A stretch of 32,505 nucleotides of DNA from the NCBI GenBank assembly GCA_031281585.1, contig JAITFE010000054.1, positions 1 through 32,505 of the forward strand. Direction: 5' to 3'. Both the position numbers and the translations under genes were made by a program. Source of the DNA: Bifidobacteriaceae bacterium. GTDB lineage: Bacteria > Actinomycetota > Actinomycetes > Actinomycetales > WQXJ01. The notes beneath the pieces were generated by a model. The model was given only the letters and a program-made list of their open reading frames with translations. It ran no database searches and had not been told where the DNA came from. Below, in pieces: positions 1,702 to 11,564 of the stretch (the first letter of the stretch is position 1; the number at the start of each line of letters is the position of its first letter).

Positions 1702-4700
1702 GTGGCTGAGCCAGTGCGCGCCGGCCTGCTCGAATACCAGGACGCTGCGGGCCAGAACCGGCGTGGTTCCTGCTACGTGCTGGGCCGTGGCTTGGTCTTG
1801 ACGGCGCGGCATTGCGTGGCCCAGGCGAGCGGCCACCGGGTCCATTTGGGCGCGGGCCAGGTACCTGCCGCGGCCGAAGTGGTCTGGGAAAGTGGCCACG
1901 AGCAGGTCGATTTGGCGTTGCTGCGCGCGGAAGCGTTCGCTGATTGGAGTCTTGTTCCCCTGGCACGCATCCAGCCTGGCGTCAATCGGGTTGAGAATTG
2001 CCGGTGCGAGGGCTATCCAGCGTTCATGAGCGATCCGAAGGGATCGGAAGGCGGCCGGGAGGACCGTCTGGCGGTCTTGGATGGCCGGGCGCGCTTGGTC
2101 CATGTGGGGCGGAGCAGCGAAAACGTCGCCTCTCCCATGCGCGGTCAGTTCGTGGCCGATCCGGGCAGGTCGGACATGCACCGGGCCGAAGTCGATCCGG
2201 ACAAGGTTTGGCGCGGCATTTCGGGCGCGGCGGTCGTGGCGCGATCCAGAGGGATCGAATACTGCCTCGGCGTGACCGCGTCCCGCCGTTCGCCGGAGGC
2301 GGGCGGTCAGTTCAACTTCACTGTTTTCGATGCCGTCGCCGAACTCGAGGGTTCCACCGCTGGCGAGTTCTGGGGTTTGGTGGGCGTCACCGGTCCGGAT
2401 GGGTTGACGGTATTGCCGGACGATGCCGCGCAGCCGGGCCCGGCGGTGAAACGGGCCTCGCGCAACCCGGTTGTCCGGGTGCCGTCGTGGCCGGGCCGGG
2501 CCGACGGATTAGTCGAGCGCGCGCAGTTTCGTGAGGTTCGAGACGGCGTGTTGGGTGGCGAAGGACCGCACCGGTTCACGCTGACCGGATTCAGGGGCAC
2601 CGGCAAGTCCCAGATCGCCGCCGCTGTGTGTCGAAGCTGCGCTGACGCCGACTGGCCAGTGGTTAGTTGGATCGACGCCCGGTCTGAGGCCGCGATCAAC
2701 GAGGGGTTGTGGCGGGCGGCCGATGCGCTGGGGATCGCCTTTGAGGGCGACCAGCCCCGGCAAACCGTGTGCCGATTGATCGATCACTGGAACCAGCACC
2801 CGGACCGGCGCCGGCTGCTGGTGTTGGACGACCTGCGAGATATGGCCGACTTGACCGGCCTGGGGATCGCCCCTGGCGCTGCGACGCTGGTCATAACTTC
2901 GGCCCATCCGAACGTCAGGGACCGCGCTCCTATCGAGGTCGACGTGTTCGGGCTGGACGAGGCAGTCGACTGCCTTGAGGGACAGACTGGACTAGGTGAC
3001 CGGGCGGGAGCCAGCGCCGTGGCTGAACGCCTGAGCCGCCATCCACTGAGTTTGTCGCAGGCGGCCTGGGTAATCCGCCACCGGCGGTTGGCCTATGAGG
3101 TGTATCTGAAGGAGTTGGATGGCCTCGCCAAGGGACTGCGCGTTCCGGACGATTTGTTCGAGGCGACACCGGACGCGGACGCTCCGTACTATTCGACGGC
3201 GTACGAGGCCATAGCCTTGAGCGTCAAGACTGCCCTGGCCTCGGCCAGGCGCCGCGATGTGGTTCAGGGGCTGCTTGACACCTTCTCCGTGCTCGATGGT
3301 TCTGATCTGGCCGTGGATTGGCTGACTCCTCTGGTTGCGGCCTTTGACCTCAACACAGCTCTGACCGTGCTGAGCGACGCGGCGCTGGTGCGGCGCTCCA
3401 ACAACGAGAGGGTTGGCCGGATGCATGGCGTGGTGGCCATAGTGATCCAAGAGTTGAATCGTCAAGCCGGCCGGCTCACTCCAGTCGGAGGTGACAAATT
3501 GGTCCGGGGCGTCAGCGTCGAAGATGACGCGACGGCCGCGCCGGTCCAAGTGTTGGCCCAGGTCGACCCGACTGACAACACCACTTACCCGGATTACGGC
3601 CGGCAAAGAGAAACGGCCACCGACCTCGCGCGGCACCTGGCCGCCTTTTGGTCCAATGCGGGCCGAAGCGCCCGCGTCGCCGAGGTCATACCGGCGGCGT
3701 CACGGTGCGGCGCGGCACTCAGAGACTTGGGCGATCCCTACACCGGCGCAGCCGTCGCGGAATTGGCTTCGGCAGTCTGCCTTGGCGTCTTGGGCCCGCA
3801 CCATCCCGACACGCTGAAATCCCAGAACGGGCTGGCTTTAGCCCACCGGGCAATGGGTCGACTAAAGGAAGCGATCAGGCTGCATGAAGTGGTTCTGGCT
3901 GATCGTGAGCGGTTGCTGGGCAGGGACCATCCTGACACGTTGAAGACCTGCGCAAACCTCGCCTTGGCCTACCGATCGGCGGGACGGGTGGAGGATGGAG
4001 TCAGGTTGTATGAGGCGGTTCTGGCTGATCGCGTGCGGGTGTTGGCCCCGGACGATCCCGACATACTAAACTCTCAGAACAGCCTCGCCTTGGCCTACCG
4101 ATCGGCGGGCCGGTTGGACGAGGCGATCACCTTGCACGAGGCGAATTTGGCCGCTCGCGAGCGGGTGTTGGGCCCGGACCATCGTGACACGTTGAAGTCC
4201 CGGAGCAACTTGGCTGGTGCCCTCATGGAAGCCGGGCGGTTGGACAAGGCGATCAGCTTGCACGAGGCGAATCTGGCGGATCGTGGGCGGGTGCTGGGCC
4301 CGGACCATCCTGACACGCTGAGGTCCCTGAACAACCTCGCCTTCGCCTACCGATTAGCGGGCCGGTTGGACGAGGCGATCACCTTGCACGAGGCGAATCT
4401 GGCGGATCGTGAGCGGGTGCTGGGCCCGGACCATCCTGAGACGTTGACGTCCCGAAATAACCTCGGTGAGTCTTACAGACTGGCGGGCCGGTTGGAGAAA
4501 GCAGTTGGTTTGTGCGAAAGCAACCTGGCCGATTCCGAGCGGGTGTTAGGGTCAATCCATCCGCACACGTTGAGGTCCCGGAACAACCTTGCCTTCGCCT
4601 ACCGATCAGCGGGCCGGTTGGATGAGGCCATCAGCCTGTTTGAGACGAATTTGGCTGATCGCGACCGGGTGCTGGGCCCGGACCACCCCGACACGCTGAG

Positions 4701-5127
4701 ATCTCGGAACAACCTCGCCGTGGCCTACCGATCAGCGGGCCGGTTGGATGAGGCCACCAGCCTGTTTGAGACGAATTTGGCTGATCGCGACCGGGTGCTG
4801 GGCCCGGACCACCCCGACACGCTGAGAACCCGCAACAACCTCGCCTTCACCTACCGGTTGGCGGGCTGGCTGGGTGACGCGGTCCGGCAGCATGAGGCGG
4901 TTCTGGCTGATCGTGAGCGGGTCTTGGGCCCGGAGCACCCCGACACCTCAAGGTCGCGGGCGAACCTCGCGCAGGCACTGGTCGAATGGGAACGCCCCGA
5001 CGAGGCGCGCAGCGTTCTTGAACCCGCTTTGTCTGCGGTCGCCACGCTCGATCCTCGTCATGATGTGCGCCGGTCGGTCGAAGAATTGGCTGTCAGCCTG
5101 GGGTTGGATGTCGATAGGGCGACCTGA
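1702..5127 (+). CDS. Trypsin-like protease / NB-ARC STAND NTPase / TPR-repeat protein
   Basis: This 1141-residue protein has three parts. Residues 1-225 form a trypsin-like serine protease with a complete triad: H37 in LTARHC, D70 in VDLALL and S174 in GISGA. Residues 275-640 form an NB-ARC/STAND NTPase, with Walker A GFRGTGKSQ at 296-304, Walker B LLVLDD near 372-377, an ITSAH sensor and HPLSL in place of GLPL. Residues 697-1116 are ten 42-residue tetratricopeptide repeats of the kinesin-light-chain/NPHP3 type (LGPDHPDTLRS-NNLA-AYR-AGRLDEA). No signal peptide is seen, so it should be cytoplasmic. STAND proteins usually oligomerise when the repeat region detects a trigger; here that would activate a protease, a plausible suicide or antiphage device (inference). 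Start GTG lies 3 bases after the Trypco2 stop. It is the main cargo of the 1132-5591 insert. Confidence 0.88.
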   Translation: MAEPVRAGLLEYQDAAGQNRRGSCYVLGRGLVLTARHCVAQASGHRVHLGAGQVPAAAEVVWESGHEQVDLALLRAEAFADWSLVPLARIQPGVNRVENCRCEGYPAFMSDPKGSEGGREDRLAVLDGRARLVHVGRSSENVASPMRGQFVADPGRSDMHRAEVDPDKVWRGISGAAVVARSRGIEYCLGVTASRRSPEAGGQFNFTVFDAVAELEGSTAGEFWGLVGVTGPDGLTVLPDDAAQPGPAVKRASRNPVVRVPSWPGRADGLVERAQFREVRDGVLGGEGPHRFTLTGFRGTGKSQIAAAVCRSCADADWPVVSWIDARSEAAINEGLWRAADALGIAFEGDQPRQTVCRLIDHWNQHPDRRRLLVLDDLRDMADLTGLGIAPGAATLVITSAHPNVRDRAPIEVDVFGLDEAVDCLEGQTGLGDRAGASAVAERLSRHPLSLSQAAWVIRHRRLAYEVYLKELDGLAKGLRVPDDLFEATPDADAPYYSTAYEAIALSVKTALASARRRDVVQGLLDTFSVLDGSDLAVDWLTPLVAAFDLNTALTVLSDAALVRRSNNERVGRMHGVVAIVIQELNRQAGRLTPVGGDKLVRGVSVEDDATAAPVQVLAQVDPTDNTTYPDYGRQRETATDLARHLAAFWSNAGRSARVAEVIPAASRCGAALRDLGDPYTGAAVAELASAVCLGVLGPHHPDTLKSQNGLALAHRAMGRLKEAIRLHEVVLADRERLLGRDHPDTLKTCANLALAYRSAGRVEDGVRLYEAVLADRVRVLAPDDPDILNSQNSLALAYRSAGRLDEAITLHEANLAARERVLGPDHRDTLKSRSNLAGALMEAGRLDKAISLHEANLADRGRVLGPDHPDTLRSLNNLAFAYRLAGRLDEAITLHEANLADRERVLGPDHPETLTSRNNLGESYRLAGRLEKAVGLCESNLADSERVLGSIHPHTLRSRNNLAFAYRSAGRLDEAISLFETNLADRDRVLGPDHPDTLRSRNNLAVAYRSAGRLDEATSLFETNLADRDRVLGPDHPDTLRTRNNLAFTYRLAGWLGDAVRQHEAVLADRERVLGPEHPDTSRSRANLAQALVEWERPDEARSVLEPALSAVATLDPRHDVRRSVEELAVSLGLDVDRAT
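3790..5049 (+). repeat. Ten tandem 126-bp units encoding TPRs
   Basis: Units start at 3790 and every 126 bases afterwards, with no length variation. They are related at the DNA level too. The stretch 4597-4701 reappears at 4723-4827 with a single difference (T or C in the codon for I or T). Middle units share long blocks such as CGGTTGGACGAGGCGATCA. The outer units (first, second, tenth) are more diverged. This pattern points to recent unit duplication or gene conversion within the array. Confidence 0.93.
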
Positions 5128-6508: not shown

Positions 6509-6751
6509 ATGACTCTGACTGTGAACGTCGCCGACGCCAAGGCCCGGCTCTCCGCCTTGTTGGCGGCGGCCGAGGACGGCGCCGAGGTTTACATCGCGCG
6601 AGCCGGAACGCCGGTTGTTCGCCTGGTGCCTGTCGAGCATCGCCGCCCACGGGTCTTCGACAGTTGGCCGGGGCAGTTTGACGCCGCCGCGCGGGAGGCC
6701 TCGCTGGCCCCACTTGACGAGGGGGATCTCGCGGACTGGGGGCTTTCGTGA
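6509..6751 (+). CDS. Phd/YefM-type antitoxin (VapB-like)
   Basis: This 80-residue protein starts MTLTVNVADAKARLSALL and continues EDGAEVYIARAGTPVVRLVP. That is the N-terminal DNA-binding fold of Phd/YefM antitoxins, in which the segment after the first strand dimerises on the operator. The C-terminal FDSWPGQFD-AAREASLAPLDEGDLADWG tail is the expected toxin-wrapping part. The start at 6509 is chosen from the -10 spacing; 6503 is possible. The stop overlaps the toxin start (GTGA). The pair runs divergently from the AbiEi gene with about 120 bases between the start codons. Confidence 0.87.
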   Translation: MTLTVNVADAKARLSALLAAAEDGAEVYIARAGTPVVRLVPVEHRRPRVFDSWPGQFDAAAREASLAPLDEGDLADWGLS

Positions 6752-7137
6752 AAGCCGTGCTGGACACCCATGTGGTCCTGTGGTCCCAGCGCGACTCGCA
6801 GTTGCTGTCCCGCACGGCCCAAACGATTCTGGCCGACCTGGACACCGAATTGCTGCTCTCGTCGGTGGTGCCCTGGGAGTTGAGCGTCAAGGAGCGGACC
6901 GGCAAGTTGCCCCAGGCGCGCCCGCTGCTCGCCGACTTCGCCCAGGTCAGATCAAACTTGGGCAGCGTGGCGCTGCCCATCGCCGACGAGCACGCGCTGC
7001 TGGCTGGCTCGCTGGACTGGCCTCACAAGGATCCGTTCGACCGCATGCTGGCCGCGCAGGCCATCCTGGCCGGGGCGGCGCTCGTCAGCGCCGACCCGAC
7101 CTTCGACACGCTGACCGGCCTCGCCCGGATTTGGTGA
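6748..7137 (+). CDS. PIN-domain toxin (VapC-like ribonuclease)
   Basis: This 129-residue protein is a complete PIN domain. The acidic metal-binding set is visible: D6 in LDTHVVLW, E44 in PWELSVKE, D98 in DPFDRMLAAQA and D116 in LVSADPTFD. VapC toxins cleave RNA, often tRNA, when the antitoxin is degraded. GTG at 6748 overlaps the antitoxin stop, so translation is coupled. Length and motifs are those of functional members, and the Phd-type partner supports a working module. The RNA target cannot be read from the sequence. Confidence 0.9.
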   Translation: MKAVLDTHVVLWSQRDSQLLSRTAQTILADLDTELLLSSVVPWELSVKERTGKLPQARPLLADFAQVRSNLGSVALPIADEHALLAGSLDWPHKDPFDRMLAAQAILAGAALVSADPTFDTLTGLARIW

Positions 7138-7215: not shown

Positions 7216-8109
7216 TCACGGGCGGGCCGCCTGCGAGGAGTTGGCGGGGACCCGTTGGCGGCGGGCGAGCAGATGGGCCAGCACGCCCTGGCGGGGCGAG
7301 AACAGCCAGGCGGCCAAGAACACGGCGGTGAGGACAAGCACAATGGTTCCGCCGGTCGGGAAGTCCCACGACCAGGAGACGTAGAGGCCCACCAGGGCGG
7401 ACAGGGCACCAATCGACGGGGCCAGCAGCATCATGACCCCCAAGCGGTCGGTCAGCAGGCGGGCGGTGGCGGCCGGGGTGACCAGCAGCGCCAGCACCAG
7501 GATGTTCCCGATGGTCTGCACGCTGATCACCACCGCCAGGGTGACCAGCACATACAGCGCCAAGTCGAGCCAGAACACGCGCAAGCCGAGCGCGCGGGCG
7601 GACTCGCGGTCCAGCGACACCGTCACGAACTCCTTGTGCAGCAAGAACACGGCGAGCAGCACAATCAGGCCGGTGCCGCCCACCACGTACAGGTCGGAGG
7701 TGGGAATGCCGGTGATGGACCCGAACAAGAACTGTTGAAGGCTTCCCGCGTAACCCGGCGCCTGGGAGATCACCACCACGCCCAGCGCGAAAGCGGCCAC
7801 GAACAGGATCCCGATGACGGAGTCCTCTTTCAGCCGCCGGTTTTGCGAGAACACCGCCACCAGGATCGCGGTCGCGACACCCGCGACCGAGCCCCCAATC
7901 ACCAGGTTCCCGCCGGCCACGAACGCGACGGCGAGCCCTGGGAAGACGGCGTGGGCGACGGCATCGCCGATAAAGGCCATTCCGCGCAACACCACGTAGG
8001 AGCCGACAACGCCGCACACGACCGAGGACATCACAGCCACCGCGAGCGCCTTCGGCAGGAACGCCAAGTCCGGGTTGAGCAAATCAGCCAGGAAATCTAT
8101 TGGGCTCAC
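7216..8109 (-). CDS. Anchored-repeat-type ABC transporter, permease subunit (ZnuB-like)
   Basis: This 297-residue integral membrane protein of the ABC-3 (ZnuB/MntB) family has about eight hydrophobic helices. It begins SPIDFLADLLNP and contains VVLRGMAFIGDAVAHAVFPG and GSITGIPTSDL. A DRESARALGL loop, which in relatives contacts the ATPase, follows, and then TIGNILVLALLVTPAATARLL. It should form the membrane channel for a divalent metal, zinc or manganese. GTG at 8109 overlaps the ATPase stop (GTGA), which decides the start; the frame is open further upstream inside the ATPase gene. It is the last gene of the operon. Confidence 0.88.
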   Translation of the reverse strand: MSPIDFLADLLNPDLAFLPKALAVAVMSSVVCGVVGSYVVLRGMAFIGDAVAHAVFPGLAVAFVAGGNLVIGGSVAGVATAILVAVFSQNRRLKEDSVIGILFVAAFALGVVVISQAPGYAGSLQQFLFGSITGIPTSDLYVVGGTGLIVLLAVFLLHKEFVTVSLDRESARALGLRVFWLDLALYVLVTLAVVISVQTIGNILVLALLVTPAATARLLTDRLGVMMLLAPSIGALSALVGLYVSWSWDFPTGGTIVLVLTAVFLAAWLFSPRQGVLAHLLARRQRVPANSSQAARP

Positions 8110-8876
8110 GACGCGGCCGCCTGAAGCATCCGCAACAGCGCCGAATCCGGCCCCACGCCGAACGTGGACGCCCACGCGTCAGGCCGGGCCACCAGCGGGC
8201 CGGGGGCACCCGCGGCGACCACGGTCTGGTTGAGCAGCGCGATCCGGTCCGCGCCGTCGATGGCGCCCAACAGGTCATGCGTGGTGGTGAGCACGGCCCG
8301 ACCCTCATGGGCGATGTCCGCGAACAGCGCCCCGAGCAACTCCTGGGTGGGCATGTCCAGGCCCGCCAGCGGCTCGTCGAGCAACAAAACCGCAGGCCGT
8401 AGGGCCAGCGCGCGGGCAACCAGGACCCGCTGCCGTTGCCCGCCGGAGAGTTGCCCCACCGGGCGGTCCGCCAGGTCGGCCAGGCGGACCCGGTCCAACG
8501 CGTCCGCCACCGCCTCCCATTCGGCCGCGCCGGGCCGCCGAAACAGGCCAAGCTTTCCGGCCAGGCCGGTGGCGACCACGTCCGCCACGCTGATGGGGAA
8601 TTCCCAGGCGAACTCGTGCCGCTGCGGGACGTACCCCACCGCCGCCCGCCCCGGCTTGGCGGGACGCCCCTCCACCAGCACGCGGCCCTGGGCGGAGCGC
8701 TGCAAACCGAGGATCGCGCGCAACAGGGTGGTCTTCCCGGCCCCGTTTGGGCCGATCAACGCCACGATTTCGCCCCGGTCCACGGCCAGGTCCACATCCC
8801 GCAGCACCCGCCGGCCGCCCAAGTCGACGGCCAGGCCCCGCACCACCAGGGCCCGGTCGGGCCGCGAATCGGTCAC
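8106..8876 (-). CDS. Anchored-repeat-type ABC transporter, ATP-binding subunit (ZnuC-like)
   Basis: This 256-residue ATPase has Walker A GPNGAGKTT, a Q-loop in YVPQRHEF, the signature LSGGQRQR, Walker B AVLLLDEPLAGLD and a switch histidine in TTHDLLG. Length and the EFAWEFPISVADVV segment are those of metal-type (ZnuC/MntA) ATPases. It powers uptake with the permease encoded next. GTG at 8876 overlaps the stop of the preceding surface protein gene (GTGA), so the three genes are translationally coupled. The much longer open frame upstream is not used. Confidence 0.9.
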   Translation of the reverse strand: MTDSRPDRALVVRGLAVDLGGRRVLRDVDLAVDRGEIVALIGPNGAGKTTLLRAILGLQRSAQGRVLVEGRPAKPGRAAVGYVPQRHEFAWEFPISVADVVATGLAGKLGLFRRPGAAEWEAVADALDRVRLADLADRPVGQLSGGQRQRVLVARALALRPAVLLLDEPLAGLDMPTQELLGALFADIAHEGRAVLTTTHDLLGAIDGADRIALLNQTVVAAGAPGPLVARPDAWASTFGVGPDSALLRMLQAAAS

Positions 8877-9970
8877 GGCCGCACGCCCGCGCCCGGCGCG
8901 GCGCCGTCCGGACCGCCGCCGACGCCGTCCGCCCCAGCGGCCGCGCGGGCGGCCAGGACGCGTTGTTTGGCCCGTCTGCCCCGGATGATGGCCGCGCCGA
9001 AGACCGCCACAAGGACCACCGCCACCAGCGCGATCGCGCCTATCAAGATGGGCACAAGCGGATCGCCGCCAGCCGCCGGCGCGGCCGCCGCAGTCGCAGT
9101 CGCGGCGGGGCCGGTCTGCTCCGCCCCGGCGGCGCCCGCCTGGGCGGAAGCCGCCGCCGCGCCGCCCCATTCGGCGGCCAGGGCGTCAGCGGGCGCGGTG
9201 TCGCTGCCCACGGCGAAGCGGACGAGTTGCGTGTCGGCGACGGAGGTGCCGTCAATCAGGTCGGCGGAGGCCTCAAGTTCCACCAGGTAGACGCCGGGCT
9301 CGGTAAACGCCCAGTTGGCATGCGTGTGGGTGTTCACGTCAACCCACAGCGGCTGCGGCTCGGCCACGCGCGAATCCCACAGGAGTTGCGGCTCGCCGAA
9401 GCTGCCCGATTGGAGGAACACGGTCATGACGCCGGGCCCCTGGACGCCAAGCAGGGTCAGGGTGACGCCGCGGTCGAGTTGTTCCATGACCTCGGGGTCC
9501 TGGGTGTTCCAGCCGACCCACACAACGTCCGGATTCTGCGTCTGGGGGGACACCCACACGCCCTGCCCCGGCTCGGCGCCCAGGAAAGAGTAGGCCGGGT
9601 CTTCGGGGGCGGGAAGCTGGCTTTCGTCGAACAGGTGGAAAACAGTCTCCGCCGGGTAACGCCACACGCTGGTGGCGTTGGCGTCGGCTTTGGCGACGTC
9701 ATCGTGAATGAGGAACTTCCACTTCCCGTCAACGAACCGGGGGCCCATGTCAACGTGCCCGGCGGTGAGCACGCGTTCGCCGTGCACCACGGCCGCGCCC
9801 GCGGACAGGGTTTGATCCAGGTTCGGATCTTCCTCGCCTTCCGCGAACGCCGGAGCGAGCCCCGGCCCCGACCCAAGCCCCAGCCCCGGCCAAGCGAGAA
9901 ACGTCAGCGCCAATGCGCCCGCCAACCCCGCCACCAGCAACGTCTTCTTCATGCGCTCCATCAATTCCAT
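8873..9970 (-). CDS. Actinobacterial surface-anchored repeat protein, single domain
   Basis: This 365-residue exported protein has a signal peptide (basic MKK, hydrophobic core, cleavage near AFAEG). One copy of the actinobacterial surface-anchored repeat domain covers about residues 60-255. A C-terminal Ala-rich linker is followed by a transmembrane helix (PLVPILIGAIALVAVVLVAV) and a basic tail. Domain hallmarks are LTAGHVDMG, YSFLGAEPG, VWVSPQTQNPDVVWVGWNTQ, GPG, HTHANWAFTEPGVY and FAVG. The His-rich HTHAN motif suggests metal binding (inference). There is no LPXTG, so it is membrane-anchored. It likely works with the ABC transporter genes it overlaps. The start could instead be the ATG at 9952. 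Confidence 0.85.
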   Translation of the reverse strand: MELMERMKKTLLVAGLAGALALTFLAWPGLGLGSGPGLAPAFAEGEEDPNLDQTLSAGAAVVHGERVLTAGHVDMGPRFVDGKWKFLIHDDVAKADANATSVWRYPAETVFHLFDESQLPAPEDPAYSFLGAEPGQGVWVSPQTQNPDVVWVGWNTQDPEVMEQLDRGVTLTLLGVQGPGVMTVFLQSGSFGEPQLLWDSRVAEPQPLWVDVNTHTHANWAFTEPGVYLVELEASADLIDGTSVADTQLVRFAVGSDTAPADALAAEWGGAAAASAQAGAAGAEQTGPAATATAAAAPAAGGDPLVPILIGAIALVAVVLVAVFGAAIIRGRRAKQRVLAARAAAGADGVGGGPDGAAPGAGVRP

Positions 9971-9986: not shown

Positions 9987-11564
9987 TCAGCCGGCCGCCA
10001 GGCACTCCCGCAACGAGTCGGCGTTGAACCGCATCATCTGGGTGTAGCTGGTGACCGTGTTGGAAAATGTGTCGCCGTAGATGGGGCAGACGGCAACGTC
10101 CTGCTCGGCGGCGACTTCGACAAGGGTGGACGACCGGGCGGCCAAGTTGGGCTCCAGGAACACCGCGGGCACGCCCAGGGACCGGATCGTTTCGGTCAGC
10201 TTGCGCCGGTCCGCCAGCGACGGCTCGGCCGCCGGGTTCGGGGTCACGAATCCGGCCACCACCAGGCCGTACGCGTTGGCCAGGTACCCGAACGCGTCAT
10301 GGGTGGTGACCAGGTAGCGGTCCTCCGGCGGGATCTCGGCGATGACGTCCCGCACGTAGCCGTCCGTGGCCTCCAATTCCGCCAAGTAGGCGTTGGCGTT
10401 GGCGGCGTAGTCGCGGGCGTGCGCTGGGTCCACCCCGATCAGCGTGTCGCGGATCAACTGCGCGTACGCCATCGCGTTGCGCGCGTCCTGCCACAGGTGC
10501 GGGTCGATCTCCCCGTGCACATGTTTGCCAAGCACCGCCTGAGCCAACTGGTACACCTGGTCGCCCGCGTGTCCCAGGAAGGAGTACTGCGAGCCGGGAG
10601 GGATTTCCTCCAGCGCCTTCGCTGGCACTTCGATCACCACTTGGTCCGGCGAGTAGGCCGATTGCGTGTGCTCGCCGCCCCCGTCCGGGTCGTAGCGGAC
10701 CTCGAGCGCCTCCGAATCCAGGTTCGCCGTCAAGTCCGCATGGCCCTTGCCGAGGATCACCGGGTCGGCGATCCCGGCCTGGCGGGCGGCCTCCGCGGGG
10801 TTCACCCCCACCGCGAACGTGTACACGGCCTGCCCCAGGGCGATCGGCTTGGAAGTGCCGTCCACCTGGAGCTTCGCCCGCAGGGTGATGGCGTAGACCC
10901 CGGCTTTGGTGAACGCCCACGTCAAGTGCGTGTGCGCGTCCGCCGGCAACGACATGGTGTCCGCCTTATACCCGTTCGCGGCGTCGAATCCGTCCGAGGA
11001 GTCGAAGTACACGTCCGTGTCCCCGAAGCTCCCGGTCAGGTACGCGAAAACGTCGCCCGGACCGGTCGCGTCCACGGCGGACAGCAGTACCTCGGAGGTG
11101 CGGGTCGCACCGAAGCGCCCCCCGTCCCCCTGCGCCCGCAGTCCCAGCCAGATGGTGTCCAGGGTGACGTCCTCCACCAGCGGGATGATCTCGGCCGCGT
11201 ACTTGACGGACTCCTCCGCCAGGGACACCGACACGGCGTCCTCCGCCAGGTTCGCGTCAAGGGTTTTGATGACCGACTGCTCTTCCAACATTGCGTAGTT
11301 GGAGAACGCCACGTCCGCGTAAACCACGTTCCGCGCGTCCCGCAGCGTGGGCTCATAGGTGTGCGGGTCGCCGCCCGCCGGCACCAGCGAAACCACCTGC
11401 ACCAGGTCGCCGCCCACGTGCCGCACCAGGTCGCCCAAGATCCCGGTGGTGGTGACCACCCGCACTTGGTCCGTTTCCGCGTCTAACATCGGCTTCGCGG
11501 TGCAGCCGGTCAACAACAGCACGCCGCCGATGCCGACCGCCACCCCCGCCCGAAACCCCCTCAT
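9987..11564 (-). CDS. Anchored-repeat ABC transporter substrate-binding lipoprotein (ZnuA-like with inserted domain)
   Basis: This 525-residue lipoprotein has signal peptide LLLTG followed by C21. The ZnuA/cluster-9 fold is split. The N-lobe has VTTTGILGDLVRHVGGD and H68 in GGDPHTYEP. The second histidine region, HGEIDPHLWQDARN, lies near residue 350, and later FLEPNL and YGDTFSN supply the remaining ligand positions. Between them, roughly residues 125-345, sits a surface-anchored repeat domain in permuted order. The GPG/HTHLTWAF/FAVG half comes first, and the GKGHADL/YSFLGHAG half comes second. ATG at 11564 follows GGGGGA and starts right at the signal peptide. It should deliver Zn or Mn to the transporter encoded downstream. 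Confidence 0.88.
   Translation of the reverse strand: MRGFRAGVAVGIGGVLLLTGCTAKPMLDAETDQVRVVTTTGILGDLVRHVGGDLVQVVSLVPAGGDPHTYEPTLRDARNVVYADVAFSNYAMLEEQSVIKTLDANLAEDAVSVSLAEESVKYAAEIIPLVEDVTLDTIWLGLRAQGDGGRFGATRTSEVLLSAVDATGPGDVFAYLTGSFGDTDVYFDSSDGFDAANGYKADTMSLPADAHTHLTWAFTKAGVYAITLRAKLQVDGTSKPIALGQAVYTFAVGVNPAEAARQAGIADPVILGKGHADLTANLDSEALEVRYDPDGGGEHTQSAYSPDQVVIEVPAKALEEIPPGSQYSFLGHAGDQVYQLAQAVLGKHVHGEIDPHLWQDARNAMAYAQLIRDTLIGVDPAHARDYAANANAYLAELEATDGYVRDVIAEIPPEDRYLVTTHDAFGYLANAYGLVVAGFVTPNPAAEPSLADRRKLTETIRSLGVPAVFLEPNLAARSSTLVEVAAEQDVAVCPIYGDTFSNTVTSYTQMMRFNADSLRECLAAG

Follow-up and report, generated by a model that had tools for sequence, protein, structure and literature searches.

In Gram-positive bacteria, the transit of zinc between the outer cell wall and the importer in the membrane is poorly understood. 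In streptococci, AdcA is a zinc substrate-binding protein (SBP) with a second zinc domain, and the surface Pht histidine proteins have been proposed to feed the SBP. Both features have counterparts in the locus described here, although the domains differ in each case, and the second zinc domain of AdcA is a C-terminal fusion whereas ours is an insertion. The TIGRFAM note for the family TIGR03769 reportedly already suggested a relay of substrate from the anchored protein to the binding protein.

The znuAECB cluster of Corynebacterium diphtheriae, with ZnuA (DIP0438/TroA), has the same gene order and domain types as the cluster studied here. ZnuE, ZnuF and ZnuG of that organism bind zinc, and znuE is critical whereas znuA deletion has only a modest effect. 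Three His of ZnuE are required for growth in low zinc; their mutation did not abolish the zinc-induced thermal shifts, and the His-to-Ala mutants showed reduced thermal stability (PMC12445094). The same paper, published in 2025, noted that the HxD/HxH motif of ZnuA is "in the reverse orientation" with a 45-residue spacer; circular permutation, a common cut point and loop replacement in ZnuA were not found in its main text. A literature search combining circular permutation and ZnuA returned no paper on this point. The searchable literature appears to contain no description of the permutation, of the shared cut point, of the single origin or of the location at the His-rich loop.

AztC of Paracoccus denitrificans is a zinc SBP whose flexible loop (residues 117-133, before the ligand H138) is essential for obtaining zinc from AztD, each of three His in the loop being essential for taking the metal (PMC7463823). 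This partner-receiving loop lies at a position equivalent to that of the insert in our protein. AztC has a short flexible loop there, whereas our protein has a whole domain, and the insert is unlike AztD, which is a beta-propeller by description (PMC7463823).

The window, that is the whole stretch of DNA analysed, comprises 32,505 nucleotides and contains the following cluster:

7216..8175, minus strand: transporter permease, TIGR03770 (465 bits, cut-off 297)
8106..8877, minus strand: transporter ATPase, TIGR03771, with a GTG start near 8877
8873..9970, minus strand: single-domain membrane protein, ZnuE-like, with canonical domain order (domain model pLDDT 93.6, pTM 0.90)
9987..11564, minus strand: ZnuA-type zinc-binding lipoprotein with the permuted insert, TIGR03772, 525 aa
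11647..17160, minus strand: surface protein with several domains in canonical order plus a C-terminal membrane segment, TIGR03773
17279..17293, minus strand: candidate Zur-type box GAACCATAATCGTTC, a near-palindrome (7-1-7) upstream of the gene cluster

The neighbours that define a TIGR03772 cluster, namely TIGR03770, TIGR03771 and anchored repeat proteins, all lie alongside, and 82 bp separate the preceding surface gene from the binding-protein gene. The clusters of 20 other genomes were read, and all repeat, with small variations, the arrangement of a surface protein followed by the binding protein, the single-domain protein, the ATPase and the permease. The surface protein has 1837 residues and at least six domain copies, the N-terminal ones degenerate; its C-terminus has a membrane segment and a basic tail without LPXTG, like the reported sortase-independent ZnuF. 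Elsewhere in the window, a large protein at 1702-5127 appears by eye to combine a trypsin-like protease, an NTPase and repeated TPR-like units, and a small protein at 6748-7137 resembles, also by eye, the PIN-domain toxin of a toxin-antitoxin pair.

The initial annotation placed the binding-protein gene correctly; the gene lies on the minus strand and encodes 525 aa with the lipobox LTGC. The product matches the TIGR03772 profile at 724.2 bits against a curated cut-off of 350.45 (residues 36-523, profile positions 2-486), and the profile itself includes the insert region. The families that rank next are Mn families. Pfam ZnuA (PF01297) gives 228.5 bits, and the curated AztC profile gives 199.5 bits, under its cut-off of 350. 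The predicted model of the full protein, of modest confidence, aligns over residues 9-504 to the cluster A-I binding proteins YfeA, MntC, AztC and ZnuA (Z 18-20). The protein is a regular TIGR03772 member, and the permutation belongs to the family as a whole. The ZnuA fold of the protein remains intact. The parts of the gene are as follows:

11502..11564, minus strand: signal peptide and lipobox LLLTGC, residues 1-21; C21 is conserved in 90% of relatives
11163..11459, minus strand: ZnuA fold, N-terminal part (residues 36-134), with the metal ligand H68 at 11361-11363
10797..11159, minus strand: surface domain, C-terminal half (residues 136-256, matching 80-189 of the canonical model); HTH (H211, H213) at 10926-10934
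10764..10796, minus strand: linker bridging the domain's original C- and N-termini (residues 257-267)
10536..10763, minus strand: surface domain, N-terminal half (residues 268-343, matching 3-76 of the canonical model); GHAD (H275, D277) at 10734-10742
9996..10535, minus strand: ZnuA fold, C-terminal part (residues 344-523); ligands H356 (10497-10499), H422 (10299-10301) and D498 (10071-10073), preceded by H348 and H350

NF038134, a curated choice-of-anchor M profile built by others, matches the binding protein at 91.6 bits (cut-off 55) in two stretches. Profile positions 77-184 match window positions 10809-11159 (E 2e-16) and come ahead of profile positions 2-73, which match 10536-10754 (E 9e-8), the reverse of the canonical order; the neighbour at 8873-9970 is matched in a single piece, 1-184. 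We also built our own domain model (193 positions) from 139 non-redundant surface-protein domains, leaving out all binding proteins. It finds positions 80-189 first (66.6 bits, i-E 3e-19) and 3-76 second (38.0 bits, i-E 1.7e-10). The reversed order was present in all 86 insert-bearing binding proteins of the fetched loci; outside the binding proteins, no permuted pair turned up. The cut point is nearly constant in these 86 relatives: in nearly every case the second piece stops at 75-76, and most first pieces start at 78-80. With its halves returned to the canonical order, the insert produced one match spanning 3-189 at 117.9 bits, while the best of 200 shuffles reached 3.3 bits. Some first pieces seemed to reach model positions 38-76, as a trace of tandem duplication might, but their alignments proved to be weakly matched ZnuA sequence. 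These results bear out the initial annotation, which had placed the C-terminal half before the N-terminal half here, assigned the canonical order to the surface proteins, and had the domain enter and leave the ZnuA fold at its PQ loop, where the cut indeed falls.

On the evidence of these alignments, the insert is a complete HxD/HxH zinc-binding domain, homologous to the neighbouring surface domains and circularly permuted, in place of the flexible His-rich loop that flanks the metal cleft and is known in AztC as the D-loop. Compared with the choice-of-anchor M family (TIGR03769, NF038134), it holds the whole domain including HxD and HxH, with the halves exchanged. As the domain is circularly permuted, the PQ loop supplies both ends that join the ZnuA fold. 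As this case illustrates, circular permutation can let one domain be both a bead on a string and a loop insert.

In alignments with E. coli ZnuA and ordinary actinobacterial SBPs, the insert replaces the His-rich loop of other ZnuA proteins. It ends 13 residues ahead of the second metal ligand, H356, which lies in the segment directly after it, H-x-H-x-E-x-(D/N)-P-H-x-W. The ligand set of three His and one acidic residue typical of cluster A-I, assigned by alignment with known SBPs, is present and is conserved in an alignment of 80 relatives (H68 99%, H356 99%, H422 89%, D498 98%). In the same alignment every relative retains H211, H213, H275 and D277 of the insert, and H348 and H350, between the insert and H356, are conserved at 98-100%. 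This pattern is consistent with the two His-containing metal sites for hand-over envisaged in the initial annotation. Two further tests were set aside. Joint loss of HxD and HxH had no power as a test of a shared site, because 247 of 249 canonical domains keep both motifs, and the His count of the loop failed as a discriminator since it differs too widely among ordinary SBPs.

The importer's own SBP now includes a domain with which the surface proteins capture zinc, placed where the loop of a better-studied system takes up the metal. This suggests that the binding protein has its own site for docking or for zinc hand-over. We propose that the surface proteins and the ZnuE-like protein would capture zinc and deliver it to the insert, where H211, H213, H275 and D277 would most likely hold the ion. 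From there it might pass H348/H350 to the high-affinity site H68-H356-H422-D498 and be imported. Such a permuted insert would act as a zinc-holding receiving and docking station that feeds the ZnuA site, with the surface proteins and the ZnuE-like protein as its source; we consider this proposal about evenly poised between right and wrong. Weighing against it are the low confidence of the full-protein model and two results from C. diphtheriae: the modest effect of losing znuA beside the critical role of znuE, and the zinc-induced thermal shifts that persisted in the ZnuE His mutants (PMC12445094). The hand-over reading is plausible by analogy with AztC, and it is reasonable and partly anticipated. 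With its named residues, it makes the relay idea a specific and testable model for a kind of transporter that occurs in several actinobacterial families, that of C. diphtheriae among them. More tentatively, and with somewhat more doubt than belief, donor and acceptor of the surface zinc relay may share one zinc-binding domain in two topologies, the surface proteins having the canonical form and the binding protein the circularly permuted one, with the permutation fixing the domain over the metal cleft, where the His-rich loop would otherwise lie, for transfer between homologous sites.

It is also possible, though we think it rather unlikely, that the insert works alone as an antenna or gate, binding zinc from solution or sensing load and controlling the cleft without metal from surface proteins. 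Such a role was proposed earlier for His-rich loops, and the insert occupies the position of the loop with its own conserved HxH/HxD set. However, the homologous partner domains, the fixed gene order and the identical genome distribution favour a link with the surface proteins. Among the genomes sampled, TIGR03772 exceeds its cut-off in 61 of 396 at the level of the order, in 27 of 395 at that of the class and in 3 of 396 at that of the phylum, and the cognate permease is present in exactly those 61 order genomes. A less likely reading is that the insert is mainly a docking domain, with metal going from the partner directly to the ZnuA cleft and the His of the insert being structural. All partners carry homologous domains, and the lost thermal stability of the ZnuE His-to-Ala mutants (PMC12445094) would agree with a structural role. 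On the other hand, the insert keeps HxH and HxD without exception across the 80 aligned relatives, and the HxH/HxD residues of ZnuE are needed for function (PMC12445094).

The homologous cluster of C. diphtheriae is repressed by zinc and Zur (PMC6711530). In the present genome, a one-mismatch copy of GAACCATAATCGTTC lies upstream of another surface-domain gene (G000 C67:36009), and AATGATNATCATT-like boxes lie ahead of cluster genes in five other loci (L141, L150, L151, L155 and L158). No site in the window came within 3 mismatches of the Zur consensus TGAAAATNATTTTCA; the box GAACCATAATCGTTC is a different 7-1-7 palindrome. The candidate Zur-like boxes, here and in several relatives, support putative zinc control of the cluster. 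Zinc specificity of the binding protein is supported, by analogy, through the C. diphtheriae homolog only. It is quite improbable that the transporter carries manganese or iron instead of zinc: the H-H-H-D ligand set fits Mn, Fe and Zn binding proteins alike and the Mn families score next, but the homologous cluster is under zinc/Zur control with zinc phenotypes, and the Zur-like candidate boxes stand at the cluster.

The initial annotation had supposed that the two halves fold as one domain and named the single-domain protein at 8873-9970 for structural comparison. The model of that protein's canonical domain is all-beta and of high confidence (pLDDT 93.6, pTM 0.90), while the full binding-protein model, built from 13 sequences, is weak (mean pLDDT 65). 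In this weak model the predicted strands of the insert nonetheless correspond one-to-one to the canonical strands in permuted order:

C-terminal half, canonical with mature residues: 91-96 with 118-124; 109-118 with 137-146; 123-127 with 151-156; 136-140 with 165-167
C-terminal half, continued: 147-152 with 183-186; 156-163 with 190-197; 167-179 with 201-212; 184-195 with 220-231
N-terminal half, canonical with mature residues: 7-9 with 248-250; 12-21 with 254-260; 24-31 with 265-271; 43-45 with 281-283; 50-54 with 288-292

The halves are complementary and do not overlap. The junction of the original termini is typically about 8 residues in relatives and about 1 residue in locus L118, so the original termini must sit close in space. 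The supposition of one domain thus stands on complementarity, the short junction, the strand correspondence and the rejoined score of 117.9 bits, and the structural comparison agrees in strand order; both are held back by the pLDDT of 65. That the halves are instead remnants of two different repeat domains that do not form one domain is highly improbable: the full-protein model is of low confidence and reading a tandem array from one loop to the next would yield the identical order, but the halves are complementary without overlap, nearly one cut point occurs in 86 of 86 relatives, the rejoined halves score as one domain and the junction shrinks to about 1 residue in L118. As for relatives of the fold, Foldseek with the canonical domain gave no match at E 1e-3 or better; FimH-like lectin domains were considered and dropped, their Z of 6.5 being middling and uninformative.

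In a tree with canonical order restored, 60 inserts grouped together in a clade that excluded all 170 canonical domains (support 1.0), so the permutation probably arose once, as a single event. A possible route is that a single repeat period, with both its ends in the PQ loop, was captured from an array of tandem domains. Half-wise identities singled out no surface domain as donor of the insert. Three TIGR03772 genes (L074, L119 and L120) occur in one genome (G525) of the same genus, two of them on contigs below 4 kb; they may be real copies or assembly duplicates. In some genera, inserts (loci L121, L122, L123, L126 and L127) carry extra low-complexity stretches, rich in Ser/Asn/Gln or in Gly, within one of the domain halves.
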